From the NCBI RefSeq assembly GCF_023734115.1, contig NZ_AP025737.1, positions 1,054,001 to 1,118,000 of the forward strand: a stretch of 64,000 bases of DNA. Reading direction: 5' to 3'. Numbering within the stretch: the first letter of the stretch is position 1; every line of letters starts with the position of its first letter. A program made the translations under genes and the position numbers. The DNA comes from Herbiconiux sp. L3-i23 (GTDB lineage Bacteria > Actinomycetota > Actinomycetes > Actinomycetales > Microbacteriaceae). Under the pieces are notes generated by a model. That model searched no databases, was not told the DNA's origin, and was given only the letters and a program-made list of their open reading frames with translations. This document shows, piece after piece, positions 19,633 through 32,337 of the stretch.

Positions 19633-20471
19633 GCTCGGTCCTGTACGACGCCCCCGGCCCGCGGACGAGACGGACTTCGCGGGTCATCTCGACCGTGATC
19701 GGCGCGATCCTCATCGTCGCCGTCGGCTACGTCCTGCTCACCCTCGGCGGCCAGGGGCTGTTCGACTACGAACGGTGGGACATCTTCAACGACCCGCTGG
19801 TGTGGCTCGACCTGCTCGGCGCGCTCGGCACGACGCTGCGGCTCGCGCTCATCTCGTCGGTGCTCGCCATCCTGCTCGGCATGGTCATCTCGCTGCTACG
19901 CATGGCGGACCACTCCGCCATCCGCATTCCCACCACGATCGTGCTCGAGTTCCTGCGCGGTCTGCCCGTGCTGCTCATGATGGTGTTCTTCTGGGCGGTG
20001 CTCGGCCTCGATCAGGAGATCGCGGTCATCATCGCGCTGAGCCTCTACAACGGTGCGATCATCGGCGAAGCGCTGCGTTCCGGACTCGTCGCACTACCGC
20101 GCGGTCAGCGCGAGTCCGGTCTCGCGATCGGCCTCGGCAGCCTGCAGACCCGGCTCGCGATCGAGTTCCCGCAGGCCTTCCGCAACATGCTGCCGATCAT
20201 CGTCGCTCAGCTGGTCGTGCTGCTGAAGGACACCTCGCTCGCGTACGTGCTCGGCGGCGTCATCGAGCTGATCCGTCGCGGTCGCCTCACCGCCGAATTC
20301 TTCGGAGCCTCGCAGTACTCCTTCTCGATCTTCGTCGTCGTCGGCGCCATGTACCTCGCCGTCAACCTCACGGTGTCGGCGATCGCCCGCCGCCTCGCGA
20401 AGCGGCGCGGCTACAGGGAGGACCCGGTGACCGCGAACACGGACCAGTCCTTGCAGGCGCCGTCGATCTGA
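19629..20471 (+). CDS. gluD: Glutamate-type ABC transporter permease 2
   Basis: A 280-residue partner permease with an N-terminal membrane segment, a periplasmic-side loop and a His/Glu permease core. Its coupling loop is GQRESGLAIGLGSLQTRLAIEFPQAFRNMLP. The ATG at 19629 overlaps the gluC stop. The C-terminal 35 residues are hydrophilic. Confidence 0.93.
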   Translation: MSSVLYDAPGPRTRRTSRVISTVIGAILIVAVGYVLLTLGGQGLFDYERWDIFNDPLVWLDLLGALGTTLRLALISSVLAILLGMVISLLRMADHSAIRIPTTIVLEFLRGLPVLLMMVFFWAVLGLDQEIAVIIALSLYNGAIIGEALRSGLVALPRGQRESGLAIGLGSLQTRLAIEFPQAFRNMLPIIVAQLVVLLKDTSLAYVLGGVIELIRRGRLTAEFFGASQYSFSIFVVVGAMYLAVNLTVSAIARRLAKRRGYREDPVTANTDQSLQAPSI

Positions 20472-20504
20472 CCGCCGTCCGCTCGGTAGCCGTCTGAGCC
20501 GCGG

Positions 20505-20636
20505 CTAGCGGCGACGGCCGCGGCGCCGCTCCTCCGGCAGAGGCTTCAGGCGGAGCGTCTCCCTCACCTTCTTGTTGCGCAGCACCTGCCGCGCGACCGG
20601 GATGAGAAACGGCAGGAAACGGATCAGACGGAGCAT
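20505..20636 (-). CDS. Small basic protein, 43 aa
   Basis: Reads MLRLIRFLPFLIPVARQVLR, then a Lys/Arg-rich tail ending [15 protein letters not shown] precedes the ATG by 5 nt, a better Shine-Dalgarno than most genes here. The first half could form an amphipathic or membrane-associated helix; the tail may bind nucleic acid. I do not recognise the family. The frame extends upstream to 20717 but that part looks non-coding. Confidence 0.65.
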   Translation of the reverse strand: MLRLIRFLPFLIPVARQVLRNKKVRETLRLKPLPEERRRGRRR

Positions 20637-20758
20637 GGTGCCTTCCTTCGGCCGCGGGCGCGGAGTCCGACGATCCTGACCCACGCCACCTGAGGCTCCG
20701 CCCGGTTCCGGCTCCACGGCGCCGATCCTCCGCCCGATTCACAGCCCACGCTCGTCGG

Positions 20759-20764
20759 TAGACT
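20759..20764 (+). promoter_or_regulatory. -10 element of pheS
   Basis: TAGACT ends 8 nt before the pheS GTG, without a Shine-Dalgarno. No Phe-rich leader peptide is present upstream. Confidence 0.5.
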
Positions 20765-20772
20765 TGCCAACC

Positions 20773-21813
20773 GTGTCAGAAGCCTCCCCGATCACCGAGT
20801 CCGCGGTCGGCGACGCGGTCGACGCGGCGCTCGCCGCCGCCGCAGCCGCCACCTCGCTCGCAGAACTCAAGGCCGCCCGCTCCGCGCACGCCGGCGAGGC
20901 CTCCGCGCTCGCCAAGCTGAACGCGAAGATGCGCGAGGTCCCCTCCGATCAGAAGGCCGCCGCCGGCAAGCTCGTCGGCCAGGCCCGAGGGCGGGTCAAC
21001 GGCGCGTTCGCCTCGCGCGAGGGCGAGCTCGAGGCGGCTGAGACCGCTGCTCGCCTCGCGGCCGAGACCGTCGACGTCACGGCGGCCTCGAGCACCTGGC
21101 GCTCGGGTGCGCGACACCCCCTCACCCTGCTGCAGGAGGAGGTCAGCGACATCTTCGTCGGCATGGGATGGGAGATCGCGGAGGGCCCCGAACTCGAGCA
21201 CGAGTGGTTCAACTTCGACGCCCTCAACTTCGACGAGGACCACCCCGCCCGCGCGATGCAGGACACCTTCTTCATCGACCCGCCTGAGCGGCACCTCGTG
21301 CTGCGCACCCACACCTCGCCGGTGCAGGTGCGCTCGCTGCTCGAGCGCGACCTGCCCGTCTACGTGCTCTGCCCCGGCCGGGTCTACCGCACCGACGAGT
21401 TCGATGCCACGCACCTGCCCGTCTTCTCGCAATTCGAAGGACTCGCGATCGACAAGGGCCTCACCATGGGGCACCTGCGCGGCACCCTCGAGCACTTCGC
21501 CCGCATCATGTTCGGCGACGAGGCGCGCATCCGCCTGCGCCCCAACTACTTCCCCTTCACCGAGCCCTCCGCCGAGATGGACGTGTGGCAGCCGGGCGCC
21601 AAGGGCGGGCCGCGCTGGGTCGAATGGGGCGGCTGCGGCATGGTCAACTCGAACGTGCTGCGCGCCGCGGGCATCGACCCCGACGAGTACCAGGGCTTCG
21701 CGTTCGGCATGGGCATCGAACGCACCCTTCAATTCCGCAACGGCCTGAACGACATGCGCGACATGGCCGAAGGCGACATCCGTTTCAGCGAGCAGTTCGG
21801 GCAGGTCCTCTAA
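20773..21813 (+). CDS. pheS: Phenylalanine--tRNA ligase alpha subunit
   Basis: Catalytic class II subunit of the (alpha beta)2 synthetase. A coiled-coil arm (residues 1-100) precedes class II motifs: motif 1 HPLTLLQEEVSDIFVGMGW, motif 2 LRTHTSPVQVRSLL and motif 3 GFAFGMGIERTLQFRNG. The GTG at 20773 gives 346 aa; a TTG at 20764 lies in the same frame but inside the -10 element. pheT begins 2 nt after the stop. Confidence 0.97.
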   Translation: MSEASPITESAVGDAVDAALAAAAAATSLAELKAARSAHAGEASALAKLNAKMREVPSDQKAAAGKLVGQARGRVNGAFASREGELEAAETAARLAAETVDVTAASSTWRSGARHPLTLLQEEVSDIFVGMGWEIAEGPELEHEWFNFDALNFDEDHPARAMQDTFFIDPPERHLVLRTHTSPVQVRSLLERDLPVYVLCPGRVYRTDEFDATHLPVFSQFEGLAIDKGLTMGHLRGTLEHFARIMFGDEARIRLRPNYFPFTEPSAEMDVWQPGAKGGPRWVEWGGCGMVNSNVLRAAGIDPDEYQGFAFGMGIERTLQFRNGLNDMRDMAEGDIRFSEQFGQVL

Positions 21814-21815
21814 CA

Positions 21816-24347
21816 ATGCGCATCCCACTCAGCTGGTTGGCCGAGTACGTCGACCTCCCGGAGGGCACGACGATCGCCGACGTGCACGCCGCCCTCGTCA
21901 AGGTCGGCCTCGAGGAGGAGGACGAGCACGGCTTCGACGTGACCGGTCCGGTCGTCGTCGGCGAGGTGCTCGAATTCACGCCCGAGCCGCAGAGCAACGG
22001 CAAGACGATCCGGTGGTGCCGGGTGCGGGTCGCCCCCGACGGTGAGACCGCGGCCGACGGCGGCGCCGACGTGCGCGGCATCGTCTGCGGCGCGTCCAAC
22101 TTCGAGGTCGGCGACAAGGTCGTGGTGACCCTGCCGGGCTCGGTCCTGCCGGGTCCGTTCCCGATCGCCGCCCGCAAGACCTACGGCCACGTCTCCGACG
22201 GCATGATCGCCTCGACCAAGGAATTGGGGCTCGGCGACGACCACGACGGCATCCTGCGTCTCGTGACCCTGGGTCTCGACCCCGAGCCGGGCACCGACGC
22301 GATCGCGCTGCTCGGACTCGACGACACCGCCGTCGAAGTCAACGTGACGCCCGACCGCGGCTACGCGTTCTCCATCCGCGGCATCGCGCGCGAATACTCG
22401 CACTCGACCGGCGCGGTCTTCCGCGACCCCGCGGCGCTGCCCGCCCCGATCCCCGCCGGCGGCTTCAGCGTCACGATCGACGACCAGGCGCCGATCCGCG
22501 GCAACATCGGCGCCAGCGCCTTCGTCACCCGCGTGGTGCGCGGCATCGACGCCACGCGTCCGACCCCGCCGTGGATGGTCGCGCGCCTCCGCCTCGCCGG
22601 GGTCCGCTCCATCTCGCTGCCGGTCGACGTCACCAACTACGTGATGTTCGAGCTCGGCCAGCCGATCCACGCCTACGACCTCGAGAAGCTCACCGACGGC
22701 ATCACCGTGCGTCGGGCCGCGAAGGGCGAGACCCTCGTCACGCTCGACGACCAGACCCGCACCCTCGACCCCGAGGACCTGCTGATCACCGACGGATCGG
22801 GCCCCATCGGGCTCGCCGGCGTGATGGGCGGCGCGAGCACCGAGGTGGGCGCGTCCACTCGCGACGTGCTCATCGAGGCCGCGAACTTCGATCCCGTCTC
22901 GATCGCCCGCACCGCCCGCCGGCACAAGCTGCCGAGCGAGGCGTCCAAGCGCTTCGAGCGCGGCGTCGACCCCGCTGTCGCCGAGGCCGCCGCCGCGCGC
23001 GTGGTCCAGCTGCTCGTCGATCTCGCCGGCGGAACCGTCGACAATCTCGGCTCGACCCACACCACCGCGGTCGAGCGCACCCCGATCGAACTGCCCGAGG
23101 GCTACGTCGCCGCGCTCATCGGCGTCGACTACGCGCCCTCCGAGGTGCTCGCGGCGCTCACCGCGCTGGGAGCGCAGGTGCAGGCGGTCGCCACCGGGCT
23201 GCTCGTCACCCCTCCGAGCTGGCGACCCGACCTCACCGACAAGGCGACCCTCGCCGAAGAGGTGGCGCGGCTCGCGGGCTACGACCGCATCCCATCGATC
23301 CTCCCGGTAGCGCCTCCCGGGCGCGGACTCACCCGCAGCCAGAAGCTCCGGCGCGCGGTGGCTCGCGCGCTGGCGGCGGCCGGGGGAGTCGAGGTGCTGC
23401 CCTTCCCGTTCCTCGCCAAGGAGCAGAACGATCTCTTCGGCGCCCCGATCGCGGGAGACGTCGCCGCGGTGAAGCTCGCCAACGCACTCGACGCGTCGGC
23501 GCCCTACCTGCGCACATCGCTGCTGCCCGGGCTCCTCGAGGTGGCCAAGCGCAACCGTTCGCGCGGGCAGGTCGACCTCGATCTCTTCGAAGTCGGCCAG
23601 GTGTTCCGGCCCGAACCCGGTGTCACGTACGGCACCGACTACGTGCCGCCGATCGCCGCGCTGCCGAGCACCGAGACGCTCGTGGACCTGAACGCGAGCC
23701 TCCCGCCGCAGCCGCGCCACGCGGCGGTGCTGCGCACCGGGGAGAAGGTCGCGAAGCAGCCGGGTCAGGACGCCGTCGCCTACGACTGGCGCGACGCGAT
23801 CACCGGCGCCCAGCAGATCGCCGCGGCCGTGCGCGTGCCCCTCCGGATCGTGCAGGGTTCGCACCAGGCCTTCCACCCGGGCCGCACCGCCGAACTCGTC
23901 GTCGACACCGACGAGGGCGTCGTCTCCGTCGGCTTCGCCGGAGAGCTGCTGCCGTCCATCGCGCAGGAGGCTGACCTCGGCGCCGTCGTCGCCGTCACCG
24001 AGGTCGACCTCGACCTGCTCATCCGCCTCGCCGACCCCGACGCGCACGCGGCGCTCATCGCGGGCGTACCGGCGGCGACGCAGGACCTGTCGTTGGTGGT
24101 CGACGCGTCGGTGCCGGCGGGCGACGTGCTCGCGGCGGTGGCAGAGGGAGCGGGATCGCTCCTCGAGCGGATCGCGCTGGTCGACGACTACCGCGGCACC
24201 GGTCTCGAGCCGGGCACCAAGTCGCTGACCTTCGCGCTGCGTTTCCGCGCTCCCGACCGCACCCTGACCGCGGCGGAGGCGACCGAGGCGAAGCTCGCGG
24301 GCGTCGCCGTGGCCGCGGAGCGCACGGGCGCCGCGCTCCGCGAGTAG
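21816..24347 (+). CDS. pheT: Phenylalanine--tRNA ligase beta subunit
   Basis: An 843-residue subunit that recognises tRNA-Phe and edits mischarged tyrosine. The order is a starting segment RIPLSWLAEYVDLPEG, an EMAP-type tRNA-binding domain (about 40-150), B3/B4 editing (about 210-380), B5 (about 400-475), a catalytic-like core and a C-terminal ferredoxin-fold anticodon-binding domain. The ATG at 21816 is chosen because it starts exactly at the conserved N terminus. Confidence 0.97.
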   Translation: MRIPLSWLAEYVDLPEGTTIADVHAALVKVGLEEEDEHGFDVTGPVVVGEVLEFTPEPQSNGKTIRWCRVRVAPDGETAADGGADVRGIVCGASNFEVGDKVVVTLPGSVLPGPFPIAARKTYGHVSDGMIASTKELGLGDDHDGILRLVTLGLDPEPGTDAIALLGLDDTAVEVNVTPDRGYAFSIRGIAREYSHSTGAVFRDPAALPAPIPAGGFSVTIDDQAPIRGNIGASAFVTRVVRGIDATRPTPPWMVARLRLAGVRSISLPVDVTNYVMFELGQPIHAYDLEKLTDGITVRRAAKGETLVTLDDQTRTLDPEDLLITDGSGPIGLAGVMGGASTEVGASTRDVLIEAANFDPVSIARTARRHKLPSEASKRFERGVDPAVAEAAAARVVQLLVDLAGGTVDNLGSTHTTAVERTPIELPEGYVAALIGVDYAPSEVLAALTALGAQVQAVATGLLVTPPSWRPDLTDKATLAEEVARLAGYDRIPSILPVAPPGRGLTRSQKLRRAVARALAAAGGVEVLPFPFLAKEQNDLFGAPIAGDVAAVKLANALDASAPYLRTSLLPGLLEVAKRNRSRGQVDLDLFEVGQVFRPEPGVTYGTDYVPPIAALPSTETLVDLNASLPPQPRHAAVLRTGEKVAKQPGQDAVAYDWRDAITGAQQIAAAVRVPLRIVQGSHQAFHPGRTAELVVDTDEGVVSVGFAGELLPSIAQEADLGAVVAVTEVDLDLLIRLADPDAHAALIAGVPAATQDLSLVVDASVPAGDVLAAVAEGAGSLLERIALVDDYRGTGLEPGTKSLTFALRFRAPDRTLTAAEATEAKLAGVAVAAERTGAALRE

Positions 24348-24367
24348 CCCGGCCCTCCGCCACTGGA

Positions 24368-24493
24368 GGTACACGGATCAGGAGTTCGTGCACGGATCAG
24401 GACGATCGGCCGGATCGGTCCTGATCCGTGTGCGAGTCGCCCGATTTCGGGCCGCATCTCCTGATCCGCGCACATTCTCCTGATCCGTGTACC
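24368..24493. repeat. Nested inverted repeats built from a 13-bp motif
   Basis: The core CACGGATCAGGA occurs twice forward (24372, 24391) and three times inverted (ending 24430, 24473 with one change, and 24489). The outermost copies form a perfect 17-bp inverted repeat, 24368-24384 with 24477-24493. Copies two and three form an inner hairpin at 24391-24430 with one bulge. It fills the pheT-arg gap. The arrangement resembles REP/BIME elements rather than CRISPR. Confidence 0.7.
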
Positions 24494-24526
24494 CGGGGCT
24501 GGTACGGGCAGTTGCTGGGAGTGCGC

Positions 24527-24532
24527 TAGGGT
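24527..24532 (+). promoter_or_regulatory. -10 element of the arginine leader peptide
   Basis: TAGGGT ends 8 nt before the ATG at 24541. This puts the transcription start at or next to the leader peptide start codon. No clear -35. Confidence 0.5.
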
Positions 24533-24540
24533 TGCGGGCT

Positions 24541-24603
24541 ATGGGTGTCCGTCGGATCGAGATCGCGCGTCGTCGCGACCGCCGACGCGCGCGCCGAAGC
24601 TAG
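24541..24603 (+). CDS. Putative arginine leader peptide (20 aa) of the arg operon
   Basis: An ATG-initiated frame [20 protein letters not shown] ends at TAG. Ten of twenty residues are arginine, in clusters RR, RRR, RRR and RR. It lies 88 nt before argC on the same strand, behind its own -10 hexamer. The composition is what an amino-acid attenuator needs: ribosomes would stall when charged tRNA-Arg is scarce. The GC-rich sequence favours Arg codons by chance, but the start, stop and position all fit. No database comparison was possible. Confidence 0.6.
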
Positions 24604-24651
24604 GCGACGTCCTTCCTCGACCGGTCAGCCGGATCGTCAGCGGGCGTCGCC
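24603..24651 (+). promoter_or_regulatory. Candidate attenuator structure before argC
   Basis: GGCGACG (24603-24609, beginning in the leader stop codon) pairs with CGTCGCC (24645-24651), enclosing a hairpin at 24618-24636 with loop TCAG. Bases 24604-24609 can instead pair with CGTCGC at 24571-24576, which are Arg codons 11-12 of the leader peptide. The two pairings exclude each other. A GTTTC follows the structure. Whether it terminates transcription is not resolved. Confidence 0.45.
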
Positions 24652-24678
24652 GTTTCAGGCCACGTCCATCCCTGTCGC

Positions 24679-24684
24679 TAAGGT
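24679..24684 (+). promoter_or_regulatory. Candidate second promoter, -10 of argC
   Basis: TAAGGT ends 7 nt before the argC ATG with no Shine-Dalgarno. If active, it would give leaderless argC mRNA that bypasses the leader peptide. Confidence 0.4.
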
Positions 24685-24691
24685 TGAATCC

Positions 24692-25738
24692 ATGCCTTTG
24701 TCCGTTGCCGTAGCCGGAGCATCCGGCTACGCGGGCGGTGAGCTCCTGCGGTTGCTCGCGGGTCACCCGGAGTTCGAGATCCGCACCGTCACGGCCCATT
24801 CGAACGCCGGGCAGAAGCTCGGCGCCGTGCAGCCCCACCTGCGCTCGCTCGCATCGCTCGACCTCGTCGACACGACGCCCGAGACCCTCGCCGGCCACGA
24901 CGTCGTGTTCCTCGCCCTCCCGCACGGCGCATCGGGCGCCATCACGGAGCAGCTCGGCGACGAGGCGCTCGTCGTCGACTGCGGCGCCGACCACCGGCTC
25001 GCGTCCGAGGCCGACTGGGCGGCCTTCTACGGCGGCGACTTCTTCGGCGCATGGGCGTACGGCGTCCCCGAACTGCCGATCGGCGGCGCCCGGAAGCAGC
25101 GCGAGCTGCTCGTGGGCGCACGGCGCATCGCGGCCCCCGGCTGCAACGCGAGCACCGTCGCCCTCTCGCTCGCGCCCGGTATCGCCGCCGGTGTGATCCT
25201 TCCCACCGACATCGTCTCGGTGCTCGCCGTCGGGCCCTCCGGCGCGGGCAAGGCGCTGAAGACCAACCTCCTCGCCGCCGAGATCCTCGGCAGCGCGAAC
25301 CCGTACGCGGTCGGCGGCACCCACCGCCACATCCCCGAGATCCAGCAGGCACTGCGGTGGGCGGGCGCAGCCGAGCCGACGATCTCCTTCACTCCTGTGA
25401 TCGTGCCGATGTCACGCGGCATCCTCGCCACCTCGACCGCGGTCCTCGCCCCTGGCGTCACCGCCGCAGAGGTCAGGGCCGCGTGGGAGGCGGCCTACGC
25501 GGGCGAGCCCTTCGTCGAGCTGCTGCCCGAGGGCCACTTCCCACGCACCGCCGACGTGCTGGGCGCCAACACCGCGCTTCTCGGACTCGCCGTCGACGAA
25601 GCGGCCGGCCGGGTCGTCGTGCTCGCCGCCGTCGACAACCTCGTCAAGGGCACCGCCGGTGCCGCCATCCAGTCCGCGAACATCGCGCTCGGACTCCCCG
25701 AGCGCGCCGGACTCGCAACGAACGGAGTGGCTCCGTGA
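24692..25738 (+). CDS. argC: N-acetyl-gamma-glutamyl-phosphate reductase ArgC
   Basis: NADPH-dependent reduction of N-acetylglutamyl phosphate. The dinucleotide-binding motif is [15 protein letters not shown] at the N terminus; the catalytic cysteine is in [23 protein letters not shown] and [17 protein letters not shown] complete the pattern. The ATG at 24692 gives 348 aa. The stop overlaps the argJ GTG by 4 nt. Confidence 0.97.
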
Positions 25739-26892
25739 GCGTGACCGTCCCCGCAGGTTTCGAGGCGGCGGGCGTCGCGGCCGGCTTGCGGTCGGGCGAC
25801 GGCCCCGACGTCGCCCTCGTCGTCAACCGAGGTCCCCTGAACCACGCTGCCGCCGTCTTCACCAGCAACCGGTCCAAGGCGAATCCGGTGATCTGGAGCC
25901 AGCAGGTCATCGCCGACGGCACGGCCGCGGCCGTCGTCCTCAACGCGGGCGGCGCGAACTGCTTCACCGGCGCGTTCGGCTTCCAGACCACCCATCAGAG
26001 CGCCGAAGCCGTCGCAGCCGAGCTCGGCGTCAGCGCCGGTGACGTCCTCGTCTGCTCCACCGGCCTCATCGGCGTCGGGGGAGAGGAGTTCCGCGCGGGC
26101 GTGCTGAAGGGCATCGCTCTCGCCGCGCCCGCCCTGTCCGCCGAGGGCGGCGACGACGCGGCGAACGCGATCCTCACCACCGACACCCACTCGAAGACCG
26201 CCGTCGTCCACGGCGACGGATGGAGCATCGGCGGCATGGCGAAGGGCGCAGGCATGCTCGCCCCCGGACTCGCCACCATGCTGGTCGTGCTCACGACCGA
26301 CGCCGTGCTCGACTCCCCGCAGCTCGATCGGGCGCTCCGCGCCGCGACCCGGGTCAGCTTCGACCGGCTCGACTCCGACGGCGCGATGTCGACGAATGAC
26401 ACCGTGACGCTGCTCGCGAGCGGCGCCTCCGGCGTCGACGCCGACGAGTCCGCCTTCACCACCGCGCTGATCGCCCTCTGCGCCGACCTGGCGAAGCAGC
26501 TGCAGGGCGACGCCGAGGGGGCGAGCCACGACATCGACATCCAGGTGATCGGTGCCGCGAGCGAGGACGACGCCGTCACGGTCGGCCGTGCCGTCGCGCG
26601 CAACAACCTCTTCAAGGCGGCGATCTTCGGCAACGACCCCAACTGGGGCCGCGTGCTCGCCGCGATCGGCACCACCGATGCCGCGTTCGACCCGTACGAC
26701 GTCGACGTCAGCATGAACGGAGTGCGGGTCTGCAGCGGCGGCGGCCCCGACCGGCCGCGCGAAGACGTCGACCTGACCGGCCGCGCCACCCACGTGCTCA
26801 TCGACCTGCGCACCGGCGATGCCGAGGCGACCATGTACACCAACGACCTCACGCACGACTACGTGCATGAGAACAGCGCGTACTCGAGCTGA
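25735..26892 (+). CDS. argJ: Glutamate N-acetyltransferase ArgJ
   Basis: Moves acetyl from N-acetylornithine to glutamate, closing the acetyl cycle; many bacterial ArgJ also use acetyl-CoA. The precursor cleaves itself before the threonine in [10 protein letters not shown], giving alpha and beta chains. [14 protein letters not shown] and [15 protein letters not shown] are present. The GTG at 25735 overlaps argC and gives 385 aa. Confidence 0.96.
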
Positions 26893-26896
26893 ACCG

Positions 26897-27853
26897 ATGA
26901 CCGACACCTCGTCCACCGACGCCGCTCCGACGGACGCCGGGAGCCCCCGCGCCGCCGCGCTGCCCGTCCAGACGACCACCCGTGACGAGGCCGCGGTGAA
27001 GGCCGCGACCCTCATCGAGTCGCTGCCCTGGCTGCAGCGCTTCGCCGGGCAGATCATCGTCGTGAAGTACGGCGGCAACGCCATGGGCGACGAGGACACC
27101 CTCCGCGCCTTCGCCGAAGACATCGTCTACCTGCGCTACGCCGGCATCAGGCCGGTCGTCGTGCACGGCGGCGGCCCCCAGATCTCCGCGATGCTCGATC
27201 GGCTCGGCATCGAGAGCGAGTTCCGCGGCGGCTACCGGGTCACGACCCCCGCGGTCATGGAGGTCGTGCGCATGGTGCTCACCGGACAGGTGAGCCGCGA
27301 CATCGTCGGCCTCATCAACGAGCACGGACCGCTCGCCGCGGCCGTCTCCGGCGAGGACGCGGGCCTGTTCTCGGGTCGCCGTCGCACCGCGATGGTCGAC
27401 GGGGTCGAGGTCGACCTCGGACAGGTCGGCGACGTCATCGCCGTCGACCCGGCGGCGGTGCTCGCTCAGCTCGACGCCGGACGCATCCCCGTCGTCTCGT
27501 CGATCGCGCCGGACATCGATGCCTCGGGTCAGAGCCTCAACGTCAACGCCGATTCGGCGGCCGCGTCGCTCGCTGTCGCTCTCGGTGCCGCGAAGCTCGT
27601 CATCCTCACCAATGTGGCCGGTCTCTACAGCGACTGGCCGAACACGGACTCGTTGGTCTCCCAGATCACCGCGGCCGAGCTCGCGGCGCTGCTGCCCGGG
27701 CTCGACTCGGGGATGATCCCCAAGATGACCGCGTGCCTCGCCGCGGTCGAGGGCGGGGTCGAGAAGGCCGCGGTCATCGACGGGCGCATCCCGCACTCGA
27801 TCCTGCTCGAGATCTTCACGGGCAGCGGAATCGGAACGGAGGTCGTGGCATGA
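26897..27853 (+). CDS. argB: Acetylglutamate kinase ArgB
   Basis: Phosphorylates N-acetylglutamate. Kinase blocks are [31 protein letters not shown] and [18 protein letters not shown]; the C-terminal [20 protein letters not shown] is typical. An N-terminal extension of about 40 residues, low in complexity, precedes the kinase core; arginine-sensitive forms often have an N-terminal helix, so feedback inhibition is plausible. Length 318 aa. It overlaps argD by ATGA. Confidence 0.97.
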
Positions 27854-29100
27854 GCGCCGCGCAACAGGAGTCACCCCACCCGTCGGCATCGTCGGTGACC
27901 GGTTCATCGCCGACCGGGTCGTCGGCCGCGGAGCTCACCGCCCGTCACGGCTCGGCTCTGATGCGCACCCTCGGCACCCCTCTGCTGGTGCTCGAGCGGG
28001 GCCAGGGGTCGTGGGTCTGGGACATCGAGGGCAACCGATACCTCGACTTCCTCGCCGGTATCGCCGTCAACTCGCTCGGCCACGCCCACCCGGTCATCGT
28101 CGAAGCCGCGGCGCGGCAGGCGGCGACGCTCGTGCACGTCTCCAACTACTTCGCAACACCTCCGCAGATCGAGCTCGCCGAGCGGCTGCGCCGCATCACC
28201 GGCGCCGGCGACGAGGGGCGCGCCTACTTCGGCAACTCGGGCGCCGAGGCCATCGAGGCCGCGTTCAAGCTCGCCCGCCGCAACGGCGGACCGGGCAAGA
28301 ACAGAATCCTCAGCCTCAAGAACGCGTTCCACGGACGCACGATGGGGGCCCTCGCCCTCACGGGCAAGCCGGCGCTGCAGGAGCACTTCGGGCCCATGGT
28401 CCCCGGCGTCGAGCACATCGACTCCACCATCGAGGCGCTCGAGGCGGCGATCGACGAGACCGTCTCGGCGCTCGTGCTCGAACCCATCAAGGGCGAGGCC
28501 GGGGTGCTGCCGCTGCCCGAGGGCTATCTCGCCCGCGCCCGCGAGCTCACCGCCAAGCACGACGCGCTGCTCATCATCGACGAGATCCAGACCGGGGTCG
28601 GCCGCACCGGCAAGTGGTTCGCCTACCAGCACGAGGGCATCGTCCCCGACGCGGTCGCGATCGCGAAGGGCATCGCGGGCGGCATCCCGATCGGTGCGCT
28701 CGTCACCTTCGGCCGCGCGAGCGAACTGCTGAAGCGCGGCGACCACGGCAGCACCTTCGGCGGCAACCCGTTCGCGACGGCGGTCGCCAACGCGGTTCTC
28801 GAGGAGATCGAGCAGTCGCAGCTCATCGACAACGCGCGGGTGCGCGGCCGCCAAGTGCGCGCCATCATCGAGGACGTCGACTCCCCGGCCATCACCGCGG
28901 TCCGCGGCAAGGGCCTCATGGTCGGCGTCGGCATCGCCGACGGCAACGCCGCCGAGGTCGCCTCCGCAGCGCTCGCTCAGGGCCTCATCATCAACGCACC
29001 GAACCCCGACAATCTGCGGATCGTCCCGCCGCTCACCATCGGCGACGACGAGATCGCCGAGTTCGAGACCCGTTTCCGGGCCGCGCTCGCATCTCTCTGA
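27850..29100 (+). CDS. argD: Acetylornithine aminotransferase ArgD
   Basis: Class III PLP aminotransferase making N-acetylornithine. The PLP lysine lies in [48 protein letters not shown] and [19 protein letters not shown] are diagnostic. The first 30 residues are a Ser/Pro-rich extension, so a downstream start is possible. Length 416 aa from the ATG that overlaps argB. Confidence 0.96.
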
Positions 29101-29140
29101 TCACCGCCGCCACTTCCGCCACGATCCGAAAGCCTCCCTC

Positions 29141-30064
29141 ATGACCCGGCACTTCCTCCGCGACGACGACCTCACCCAGGCCGAGCAGAGCGAGATCCTC
29201 GATCTCGCGCTGACGATGAAGAAGGACCGCTGGGGCGAGAAGCCGCTCGCCGGCCCCCAGACCGTGGCCGTCATCTTCGACAAGTCCTCGACGAGGACCC
29301 GGGTCTCGTTCGCGGTCGGGATCGCCGACCTCGGCGGAAGCCCCCTCATCATCTCGACCGCCAACTCGCAGCTCGGCGGCAAGGAGACCCCCGCCGACAC
29401 GGCGCGGGTGCTCGAGCGCATGGTCTCGGCGATCGTCTGGCGCACCTACGCGCAGGCCGGCCTCGAAGAAATGGCTGACGGCACCACGGTGCCCGTCGTC
29501 AACGCCCTCTCCGACGACTTCCACCCCTGCCAGCTGCTCGCCGACCTGCTGACCATCCGCGAGCACCGCGGCGAGCTCGCGGGCCTGACGGTGGCGTTCC
29601 TCGGCGACGGCGGCAGCAACATGGCGCAGTCCTACCTGCTGGCCTGCGCGCTTGCCGGTATGAACATCCGCATCGGCGCGCCGATCGACTACGAGCCCGC
29701 GCAGCAGGTCGTCGACGACGCGTGGGCGCTGGCCGAGAAGAACGGCGGCTCCGTCGCGGTGCTCGCCGACCCGATCGCCGCGGTCGGAGGCGCCGACATC
29801 GTCGTCACCGACACATGGGTCTCGATGGGGCGCGAAGACGAGAAGGCCGCGCGCATCACCGCGCTGTCGGACTACAAGGTGACGCCCGAGCTGATGACGC
29901 ACGCCGCCGACGACGCCCTGTTCCTGCACTGCCTTCCCGCCGACCGCGGCTACGAGGTCGACGCCGCCGTGATCGACGGGCCGCAGAGCGTCATCTGGGA
30001 CGAGGCGGAGAACCGCCTGCACGCCCAGAAGGCCCTGCTCACCTGGCTGCTGCGCCAGCAGTGA
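29141..30064 (+). CDS. argF: Ornithine carbamoyltransferase ArgF
   Basis: Forms citrulline from ornithine and carbamoyl phosphate. The carbamoyl-phosphate loop is KSSTRTRVSFAVG, with FHPCQLLADLLTI, DTWVSMG and the ornithine/catalytic FLHCLPADRGYEV. Length 307 aa, normal. It lies 40 nt after argD. Confidence 0.97.
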   Translation: MTRHFLRDDDLTQAEQSEILDLALTMKKDRWGEKPLAGPQTVAVIFDKSSTRTRVSFAVGIADLGGSPLIISTANSQLGGKETPADTARVLERMVSAIVWRTYAQAGLEEMADGTTVPVVNALSDDFHPCQLLADLLTIREHRGELAGLTVAFLGDGGSNMAQSYLLACALAGMNIRIGAPIDYEPAQQVVDDAWALAEKNGGSVAVLADPIAAVGGADIVVTDTWVSMGREDEKAARITALSDYKVTPELMTHAADDALFLHCLPADRGYEVDAAVIDGPQSVIWDEAENRLHAQKALLTWLLRQQ

Positions 30065-31665
<1,601 letters not shown>

Positions 31666-31695
31666 GTCCCCGCCGTCGATGAGCCCCGCCCACCC

Positions 31696-32337
31696 GTGAG
31701 CACGATGCCGTCGCCGCGCTCCGTGTTCGACCGGCCGGCCGAGGAGGCGGCGCCGCTGCTGCTCGGCGCCGTGCTGCGCCGGGCGGGGGAGCACGGCACC
31801 GTCGCGGTGCGACTGACGGAGGTCGAGGCCTACTCGGGTGAAGGGCTCGACCCCGGCTCGCACGCCCACCGGGGGAAGGGCAAACGCAACGCGGTGATGT
31901 TCGGACCCTCCGGCCATCTGTACACCTACTTCACCTACGGCATGCACGTGTGCGCGAACGTCGTCTGCCTTCCGGAGGGACGCGCCGCGGGGATCCTGCT
32001 GCGCGCCGGCGAGATCATCGAAGGCGAGGAGGCGGCACGCGAGCGCCGGGGGAGCGCCGTGCCCTTCCGCGACCTCGCGCGAGGCCCGGCCCGGCTCGCG
32101 ACCGCGCTCGGCATCCCGCTCTCCGATGGCGGCGCCGACCTCTTCGCGGAGCCCTACGACCTCGAGCTGCCCTGGCACGCGCCGGCGCATGCCACCAGCG
32201 CGCGCACCGGGGTGAGCGGCGAGGGCGGTTCCGACGCGTTCCCATGGCGCTTCTACCTCCCGGGCGACGCGACCGTCTCGCCCTACCGGGCGCACATCCC
32301 GAAGCGTCGGAGCCTGCCGCCCCTGTGGCAGGAGTGA
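31696..32337 (+). CDS. 3-methyladenine DNA glycosylase, Mpg/AAG family
   Basis: Removes alkylated purines from DNA. The active-site glutamate is in LTEVEAYSGEG, followed by GSHAHRGK, NAVMFGPSGHLYTYFTYGMH, CANVVC and GPARLATALGI. Length 213 aa from the GTG. It converges on the next gene with one base between the stops. Confidence 0.93.
   Translation: MSTMPSPRSVFDRPAEEAAPLLLGAVLRRAGEHGTVAVRLTEVEAYSGEGLDPGSHAHRGKGKRNAVMFGPSGHLYTYFTYGMHVCANVVCLPEGRAAGILLRAGEIIEGEEAARERRGSAVPFRDLARGPARLATALGIPLSDGGADLFAEPYDLELPWHAPAHATSARTGVSGEGGSDAFPWRFYLPGDATVSPYRAHIPKRRSLPPLWQE

Follow-up and report, generated by a model that had tools for sequence, protein, structure and literature searches.

A candidate arginine-sensing leader peptide ahead of argCJBDFH in Herbiconiux and other Microbacteriaceae

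The DNA analyzed here, referred to below as the window, is a stretch of 64,000 nucleotides from Herbiconiux sp. L3-i23 (NZ_AP025737.1, positions 1,054,001 to 1,118,000), whose arginine biosynthesis genes argCJBDFH all lie on the forward strand. The first gene, argC (24692..25738), encodes N-acetyl-gamma-glutamyl-phosphate reductase; it is followed by the close-packed argJ, argB, argD, argF, and argH (approximate outer limits, 25735..31555), names that were assigned from gene order together with the Pfam families found downstream of argC (ArgJ, AA_kinase, Aminotran_3, OTCace, and Lyase_1/ASL_C2). Ahead of argC and on the same strand, translation of open reading frames (ORFs) predicts an Arg-rich leader (24541..24603), which starts with the ATG at 24541, comprises 20 codons, 10 of them for Arg, and has a TAG stop ending at 24603, leaving a gap of 88 nt to the argC ATG at 24692. 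A TAGGGT hexamer (24527..24532), with 8 nt between it and the leader ATG, is the candidate -10 box of a leader promoter, the mRNA start being predicted at or adjoining the ATG. These features had been described in an earlier note on this DNA, and all of them hold. Codon 19 of the leader is the Arg codon CGA (24595..24597), the proposed stall codon, situated 8 nt ahead of the base of a forward-strand hairpin (24603..24651), in which the 5' arm GGCGACGTCC (24603-24612) and the 3' arm GGGCGTCGCC (24642-24651) flank an inner stem. The first base of the hairpin is the G of the leader stop codon, and its predicted folding energy, when it is folded alone, is -29.2 kcal/mol. The spacer between the hairpin and argC (24652..24691) contains TAAGGT (24679..24684), which includes the Shine-Dalgarno (SD) sequence AAGG and fits the -10 box TANNNT too.

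Within the window, ORFs of 12 to 50 codons that start with ATG number 141 and 235 on the two strands. Five of them reach 45% Arg, two of these being nested, and among the 376 the argC leader is the only one to have both an Arg content of at least 45% and a TANNNT box 6 to 9 nt upstream. The leader RNA folded alone showed no unusual stability (z -0.62; 53 of 200 shuffles were as good), and a promoter/terminator consensus scan returned nothing above chance. Rfam, searched over positions 20001-32000 of the window at E values up to 1 with T-box and other regulatory families included, gave no match at the leader; there were five miRNA-model matches, all under gathering scores, on the upstream repeat. 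That repeat lies between pheT and the leader (24368-24493) and is a dispersed palindrome with 47-nt arms, 81% complementary, made of CCTGATCCGTG-like units. It has 80 matching stretches in its own genome, where 20 other places match it over at least 100 nt at 70-90% identity, and to judge by this organization it is a MITE- or REP-like element.

Upstream regions of argC were compared in two sets. The first held 88 loci, namely, the argC loci of the best 80 of 300 relatives and 8 loci of the same genus (its own included), four pairs of which share identical upstream DNA. A leader was called where a start codon with TANNNT 6 to 9 nt upstream opened a frame of 12 to 50 codons with at least 5 Arg. 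By this rule a leader was present at 60 of the 88 loci, with 56 distinct peptides; the 28 loci without one were 11 from Leucobacter, 7 from Cryobacterium, 3 from Naasia, 4 of the same-genus loci, which cluster with Naasia, and one each from Glaciibacter, Frigoribacterium, and Agromyces. The Agromyces contig (L024) is truncated 169 nt upstream of argC, and its negative call may be false. To lessen best-match bias, the second set took one genome per genus for 68 of the 81 genera with argC, chosen among the matches listed for 189 genomes. A leader was called in 40 of these 68 Microbacteriaceae genera; 30 rounds of dinucleotide shuffling gave 1.1 on average and never more than 4. For the other families of the order, 36 regions upstream of argC were taken, of which 34 could be read (L139 and L237 were dropped for lack of an argC start), and no leader was called in any of the 34 (shuffled mean, 1.0). 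Because the two sets overlap by peptide (for example, L183 = L027, L191 = L017, and L203 = L049), they are not independent. The comparison shows that the predicted Arg-rich frame, with its promoter box, is conserved before argC in many relatives, a point that the earlier note had proposed to check. A cluster of upstream Arg codons is common among these leaders, and the N-terminal half of the peptide is variable between genera.

A search with an RNA model of the element, to be read as a lower bound with a model built from some of the surveyed strains, gave a match at an E value of 0.001 in 61 of 199 Microbacteriaceae genomes, 35 of them above the best outgroup score (41.3 bits); 10 of 184 outgroup genomes reached an E value of 0.001 as well. 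In its own genome the single match at this E value was the one at argC, among 23 candidates scored.

The leader transcript should be leaderless, since the -10 box stands mostly 6 nt ahead of the start codon: among the 40 genera, the distance allowed by the caller (6 to 9 nt) was 6 nt in 31, 7 nt in 8, and 9 nt in 1, and it is 8 nt in the window. When the 56 distinct leaders were aligned on the -10 box, for which the caller demanded TANNNT, each base of a -35-like TTTGC was conserved in 42 to 50 of the 56. This element is weaker in the 40 genus-level leaders, and the corresponding place in the window (24502-24507) reads GTACGG, with no match to it. At argC itself, an SD-like AAGG, GAGG, AGGA, or AGGG is present in 39 of the 40 genera with a leader, while the 28 genera without one divide into 18 with a -10 box only, 5 with an SD only, 4 with both, and 1 with neither. 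In 29 of the 40 leader-bearing genera and at 51 of the 56 distinct leader loci, argC is also preceded by a TANNNT at a distance of 5 to 9 nt; no conserved -35 was seen ahead of this box. Given that TAAGGT (24679-24684) fits a -10 box too, it could be a second promoter for argC that bypasses the leader.

In 18 of the 68 genera (e.g., L163, L166, L173, L177, L179, and L185), which have neither ArgR nor a called Arg leader, a bare TAGATT-type -10 box without an SD lies directly before argC, and in several genera that lack the leader argC appears to be driven by a leaderless promoter of its own. The argG gene of the window strain (L104, G000:C1:1540023-1540466), apart from the cluster and with a low family score, shows TAGGGT 7 nt upstream of its ATG; it thus looks leaderless and devoid of a leader peptide. 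Among 24 argG loci, the start was found by motif in 11; an ORF with at least 4 Arg codons occurred in two of these (L098 and L099), by eye with no -10 box, and in none of the other nine.

By comparison across relatives, the strongest signal is a CGA codon at a fixed distance from the hairpin, a codon that the earlier note missed. The element search, which required CG at -11 or -8 and GGCGRC, succeeded in 54 of the 56 distinct leaders (L049 and L087 failed), and all 54 elements have an in-frame CGA exactly 8 nt before the GGCG at which the hairpin begins. The same spacing was found in 39 of 40 genera, where the last CGA before GGCG stands at 8 nt in 36, at 5 nt in 3 (a second CGA follows), and at 11 nt in 1. 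CGA accounts for 109 of 440 Arg codons in the 56 distinct leaders versus 19 of 918 in their argC genes. The codon before CGA varies (CGC in 25 genera, GAG in 8, and others in 7; CGC in 49 of 54 in the closer set), as does the stop codon relative to the hairpin base (-2 in 23 genera, +16 in 15, and otherwise +13 or +22), so that what is conserved is one codon at one distance, neither a dipeptide nor a stop. The last two Arg codons, CGCCGA, could pair with GGCG in many leaders; such pairing was rejected as the reason for CGA, since CGA is kept while CGC precedes it in only those 25 genera. In a Salmonella leader-peptide assay, CGA was decoded more slowly than CGU and CGC, all of which are read by the same tRNAs (PMC4046918). 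The bare CGA-GGCG pattern occurs without a called leader in two Microbacteriaceae regions (L164 and L182), so the caller may miss some leaders. One outgroup region (L137) also has it, along with a partner, at a distance of 281 nt from argC and with no leader.

Comparison also shows the predicted hairpin in the relatives, where it starts at GGCG, extends over about 40-67 nt, and closes with CGCC. Its interior differs between genera and is more stable than shuffled sequences in 53 of 54 elements (mean z, -1.9). RNAalifold kept 8 outer pairs, 3 of which changed on both sides, and 95.5% of cells pair in the consensus versus 27-72% when the partner is slid; in the genus-level hairpins the 3' arm was set to CGCC, which gives the first four pairs by construction, and L162 and L172 are at a non-leader site. 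Pair 5 is noncanonical in 13 of 40 genera. Column shuffles equaled the real data in 78 of 500 trials for changed pairs, in 96 of 500 for pair types, and in 17 of 500 for the covariation score, and the covariation of the hairpin appears modest. From the end of the hairpin to argC the distance is 36-87 nt in the 54 elements. In three Agromyces loci (L021, L022, and L042), the hairpin 3' arm, the spacer, and the SD-like region seem to be tandemly duplicated, which would place the hairpin end 85-87 nt before argC.

The earlier note had proposed a different switch. It observed that the strand at 24604-24609 (GCGACG) is complementary to CGTCGC both at 24571-24576, within Arg codons 11 and 12, and at 24645-24650, which is correct, and it supposed that the two pairings compete under the control of the translating ribosome. 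The conserved hairpin includes the pairing with 24645-24650. For the other, we asked how often the upstream ORF of the 54 leaders holds six nucleotides able to form Watson-Crick pairs with the 5' arm; 11 did, versus 13.2 expected from shuffled codons. Codons 11 and 12 were accordingly rejected as an antiterminator. On the downstream side, the 3' arm with the spacer was more stable than with shuffled spacers in 21 of 54 cases (P = 0.67), and a terminator formed between the 3' arm and the spacer was rejected for want of a stability gain. Mutually exclusive antiterminator and terminator helices of the trp type are not supported by these two tests. From the proposal that an Arg leader attenuates argCJBDFH, the leader peptide and the ribosome-controlled logic are retained, with recurrence in relatives and the absence of ArgR in their favor, and the particular switch is abandoned.

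No U-tract follows the hairpin in any of the 54 elements, the longest T run within 20 nt being 1-3; the manner in which transcription would be terminated is therefore something we infer. Across genera, the 28 nt from -42 to -14 of argC contain 47% C and 20% G where a leader is present versus 33% C and 36% G where it is not. The spacer, C rich, G poor, and weakly folded in relatives, may be a Rho loading region, and such an open, C-rich stretch would suit Rho; the genome encodes rho. The stop could be either a U-less intrinsic one or Rho dependent.

The repressor ArgR, acting at the ARG box, is the usual means of arginine control. Searches with PF01316 and PF02863, which matched 9 and 8 of 14 control genomes, respectively, found ArgR in none of 199 Microbacteriaceae genomes, that of the window strain included, so that the absence of argR, noticed earlier for the cluster, extends to the whole genome and to all of the relatives searched. 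Among 198 sampled genomes of the order, 181 have ArgR, and the 17 without it are 14 Microbacteriaceae and 3 others; outside Microbacteriaceae it is encoded in 181 of 184 genomes, two of the three exceptions being smaller than 1 Mb. The motif TGTA[TA][AGC] resembles part of an ARG box, and we read it as part of the ArgR operator; it was seen no more than 28 nt from argC in 26 of 34 outgroup regions versus 1 of 68 Microbacteriaceae regions. The repressor gene for ArgR/ARG-box control is carried by nearly all sampled genomes of the other families and was found in none of the Microbacteriaceae, the 28 of 68 genera without a called leader included. Many Microbacteriaceae probably sense arginine shortage by means of a stalled ribosome, and on this comparative evidence it is very likely that the short ORF is an arginine-sensing leader peptide of argCJBDFH.

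The slow reading of CGA and the position of the hairpin base in the ribosome entry channel together suggest that a stall opens the hairpin and that arginine supply closes it. The Arg leader peptide would be translated, leaderless, from the 5' end of the argCJBDFH transcript. When charged tRNA-Arg is ample, the ribosome would pass CGA, terminate at the stop codon, and depart, upon which the hairpin would close and RNA polymerase would halt before argC or early in it. When arginine is short, the ribosome would wait with the slowly read CGA in its A site, and its entry channel would cover GGCGAC, so that the hairpin base would stay open and transcription would proceed into argC. With CGA in the A site, the hairpin base lies 8-13 nt downstream of the first A-site base, a position that, by the ribosome footprint, would be in the entry channel. 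That a ribosome at CGA masks the hairpin, and that the formed hairpin is the off state, seems to us reasonably probable; the response to arginine, its direction, and termination of transcription are what we infer from the arrangement. Folding of the window sequence with a ribosome masking codon 10 leaves the predicted hairpin intact. A stall at the earlier Arg codons would thus leave the hairpin free, and the upstream Arg codons are unexplained by masking alone. When the ribosome is placed at CGA instead, which by the design of the fold removes the hairpin, some of the region around the argC SD pairs up in this one sequence.

Judging from the title of Canestrari 2020, leaderless poly-Cys short ORFs reportedly attenuate mycobacterial operons; these would share with the argC leader the leaderless short ORF, the codons for the end product, and an actinobacterial host, and they would differ in sensing cysteine. 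In the Actinobacteria surveyed by Seliverstov 2005, Leifsonia xyli included, leader elements were described for Trp, Cys, and Leu/Ile genes; the authors give no terminator hairpin for the Mycobacterium cys leaders and report having seen no conserved RNA structure ahead of arginine operons (PMC1262725). Its trp, ilvB, leuS, and leuA elements resemble the argC leader in placing a peptide with regulatory codons before amino acid genes. By the same account, trp and leuS have an antiterminator and a terminator with poly-U, and in the LEU element the Leu codons pair with the leuA SD, whereas the argC leader has one hairpin and no poly-U (PMC1262725). In the accessible text of RNA surveys of Corynebacterium glutamicum, leader peptides are named for trpE, leuA, ilvB, and aroF and none for arginine genes, and one survey lists arginine among the pathways with long 5' untranslated regions (PMC4046766 and PMC3890552). 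Among known bacterial leaders that sense arginine, Salmonella orf34-speF comes closest; it is alike in that the Arg codons of a short upstream ORF sense arginine and ribosome pausing changes a hairpin beside the stop codon, with Rho involved. It controls ornithine decarboxylase, whereas the argC leader precedes genes for arginine synthesis; orf34 has an SD, and speF starts at nucleotide 516 of the mRNA; and orf34 uses the consecutive codons AGG-CGG (codons 12 and 13), with CGACGA or CGCCGC also serving, whereas the argC leader keeps one fixed CGA (PMC6386406).

The likeness to orf34-speF also raises a post-transcriptional explanation, in which the stalled ribosome or the hairpin alters argC translation or mRNA decay without premature termination. 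The absence of a U-tract fits it, as do the argC SD in leader-bearing genera and the pairing of part of the SD region in the masked fold of the window sequence, and control in orf34-speF itself depends partly on RNase G and on how accessible the ribosome-binding site is (PMC6386406). Against it, in genera with a leader the 38 nt preceding argC fold less strongly than in genera without one (-4.6 versus -8.4 kcal/mol; P = 2.6e-5), so that the SD looks open, and the spread of hairpin-to-argC distances is ill suited to direct SD blocking by the hairpin, which this distance and the open region at argC both disfavor. We consider the post-transcriptional explanation unlikely. Somewhat less likely again is a classical trp-type arrangement, in which the hairpin is the on state: a stall in the upstream Arg cluster would let it form, and a ribosome at the stop codon would mask it, allowing a further structure to terminate transcription. 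The two prevailing stop positions, -2 and +16, which cover 38 of the 40 genera, would have a pausing ribosome cover the 5' arm, the upstream Arg cluster is common, and GGC, which might serve the 3' arm as a short pairing partner, is present in 25 of 54 spacers. Yet GGCG is present in only 2 of the 54 spacers, the 3' arm and spacer gained nothing over shuffled ones, and a CGA at -8 would stall the ribosome just where it masks the on hairpin. An arrest peptide, with the nascent Arg-rich chain acting inside the ribosome tunnel as a sensor of arginine or of a metabolite related to it, has a precedent in the fungal arginine attenuator peptide, as a review describes (PMC11550727); we hold it to be very improbable here, because the N-terminal half of the peptide differs from genus to genus and because conservation is restricted to one synonymous codon, CGA, instead of extending to Arg codons in general, a restriction for which a peptide sensor would have no use. 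Chance, whereby GC-rich DNA with its many CGN codons yields an Arg-rich ORF (as in the four other such ORFs of the window) beside a hairpin without a regulatory role, is scarcely credible given 40 of 68 genera with a leader versus 1.1 after shuffling, none in the 34 regions outside Microbacteriaceae, and the kept CGA spacing.

In a tree of ArgC proteins with 110 rows (59 with a leader, 28 without, and 23 outgroup), the leader label needs 6 changes versus a mean of 36.8 when shuffled. The outgroups fall on one side of a supported branch, the root being drawn at the midpoint, and the window strain groups with Amnibacterium flavum and Naasia (argC only). This pattern would fit one gain of the leader near the root of the Microbacteriaceae, with losses in Cryobacterium, Leucobacter, Naasia, and a Frigoribacterium row. 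The chances seem to us evenly balanced that ArgR was lost at or near that root and was replaced by a minimal cis attenuator, consisting of a leaderless ORF, a single slowly decoded CGA as the arginine sensor, and a U-less hairpin at a fixed 8 nt, with no antiterminator, which was later lost, e.g., in Cryobacterium, Leucobacter, and Naasia.

The finding bears on the control of arginine synthesis in the Microbacteriaceae, where no ArgR was found, and the kept distance between CGA and the hairpin makes the idea of one slow codon as a sensor directly testable. No leader peptide for bacterial arginine biosynthesis was found among the titles and beginnings of abstracts listed from the open literature; if the proposal is true, this would be an arginine biosynthesis attenuator in bacteria of which that search found no report. 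It would also mean that a bacterial family has swapped a DNA-binding repressor for an RNA- and ribosome-based sensor of the same amino acid.
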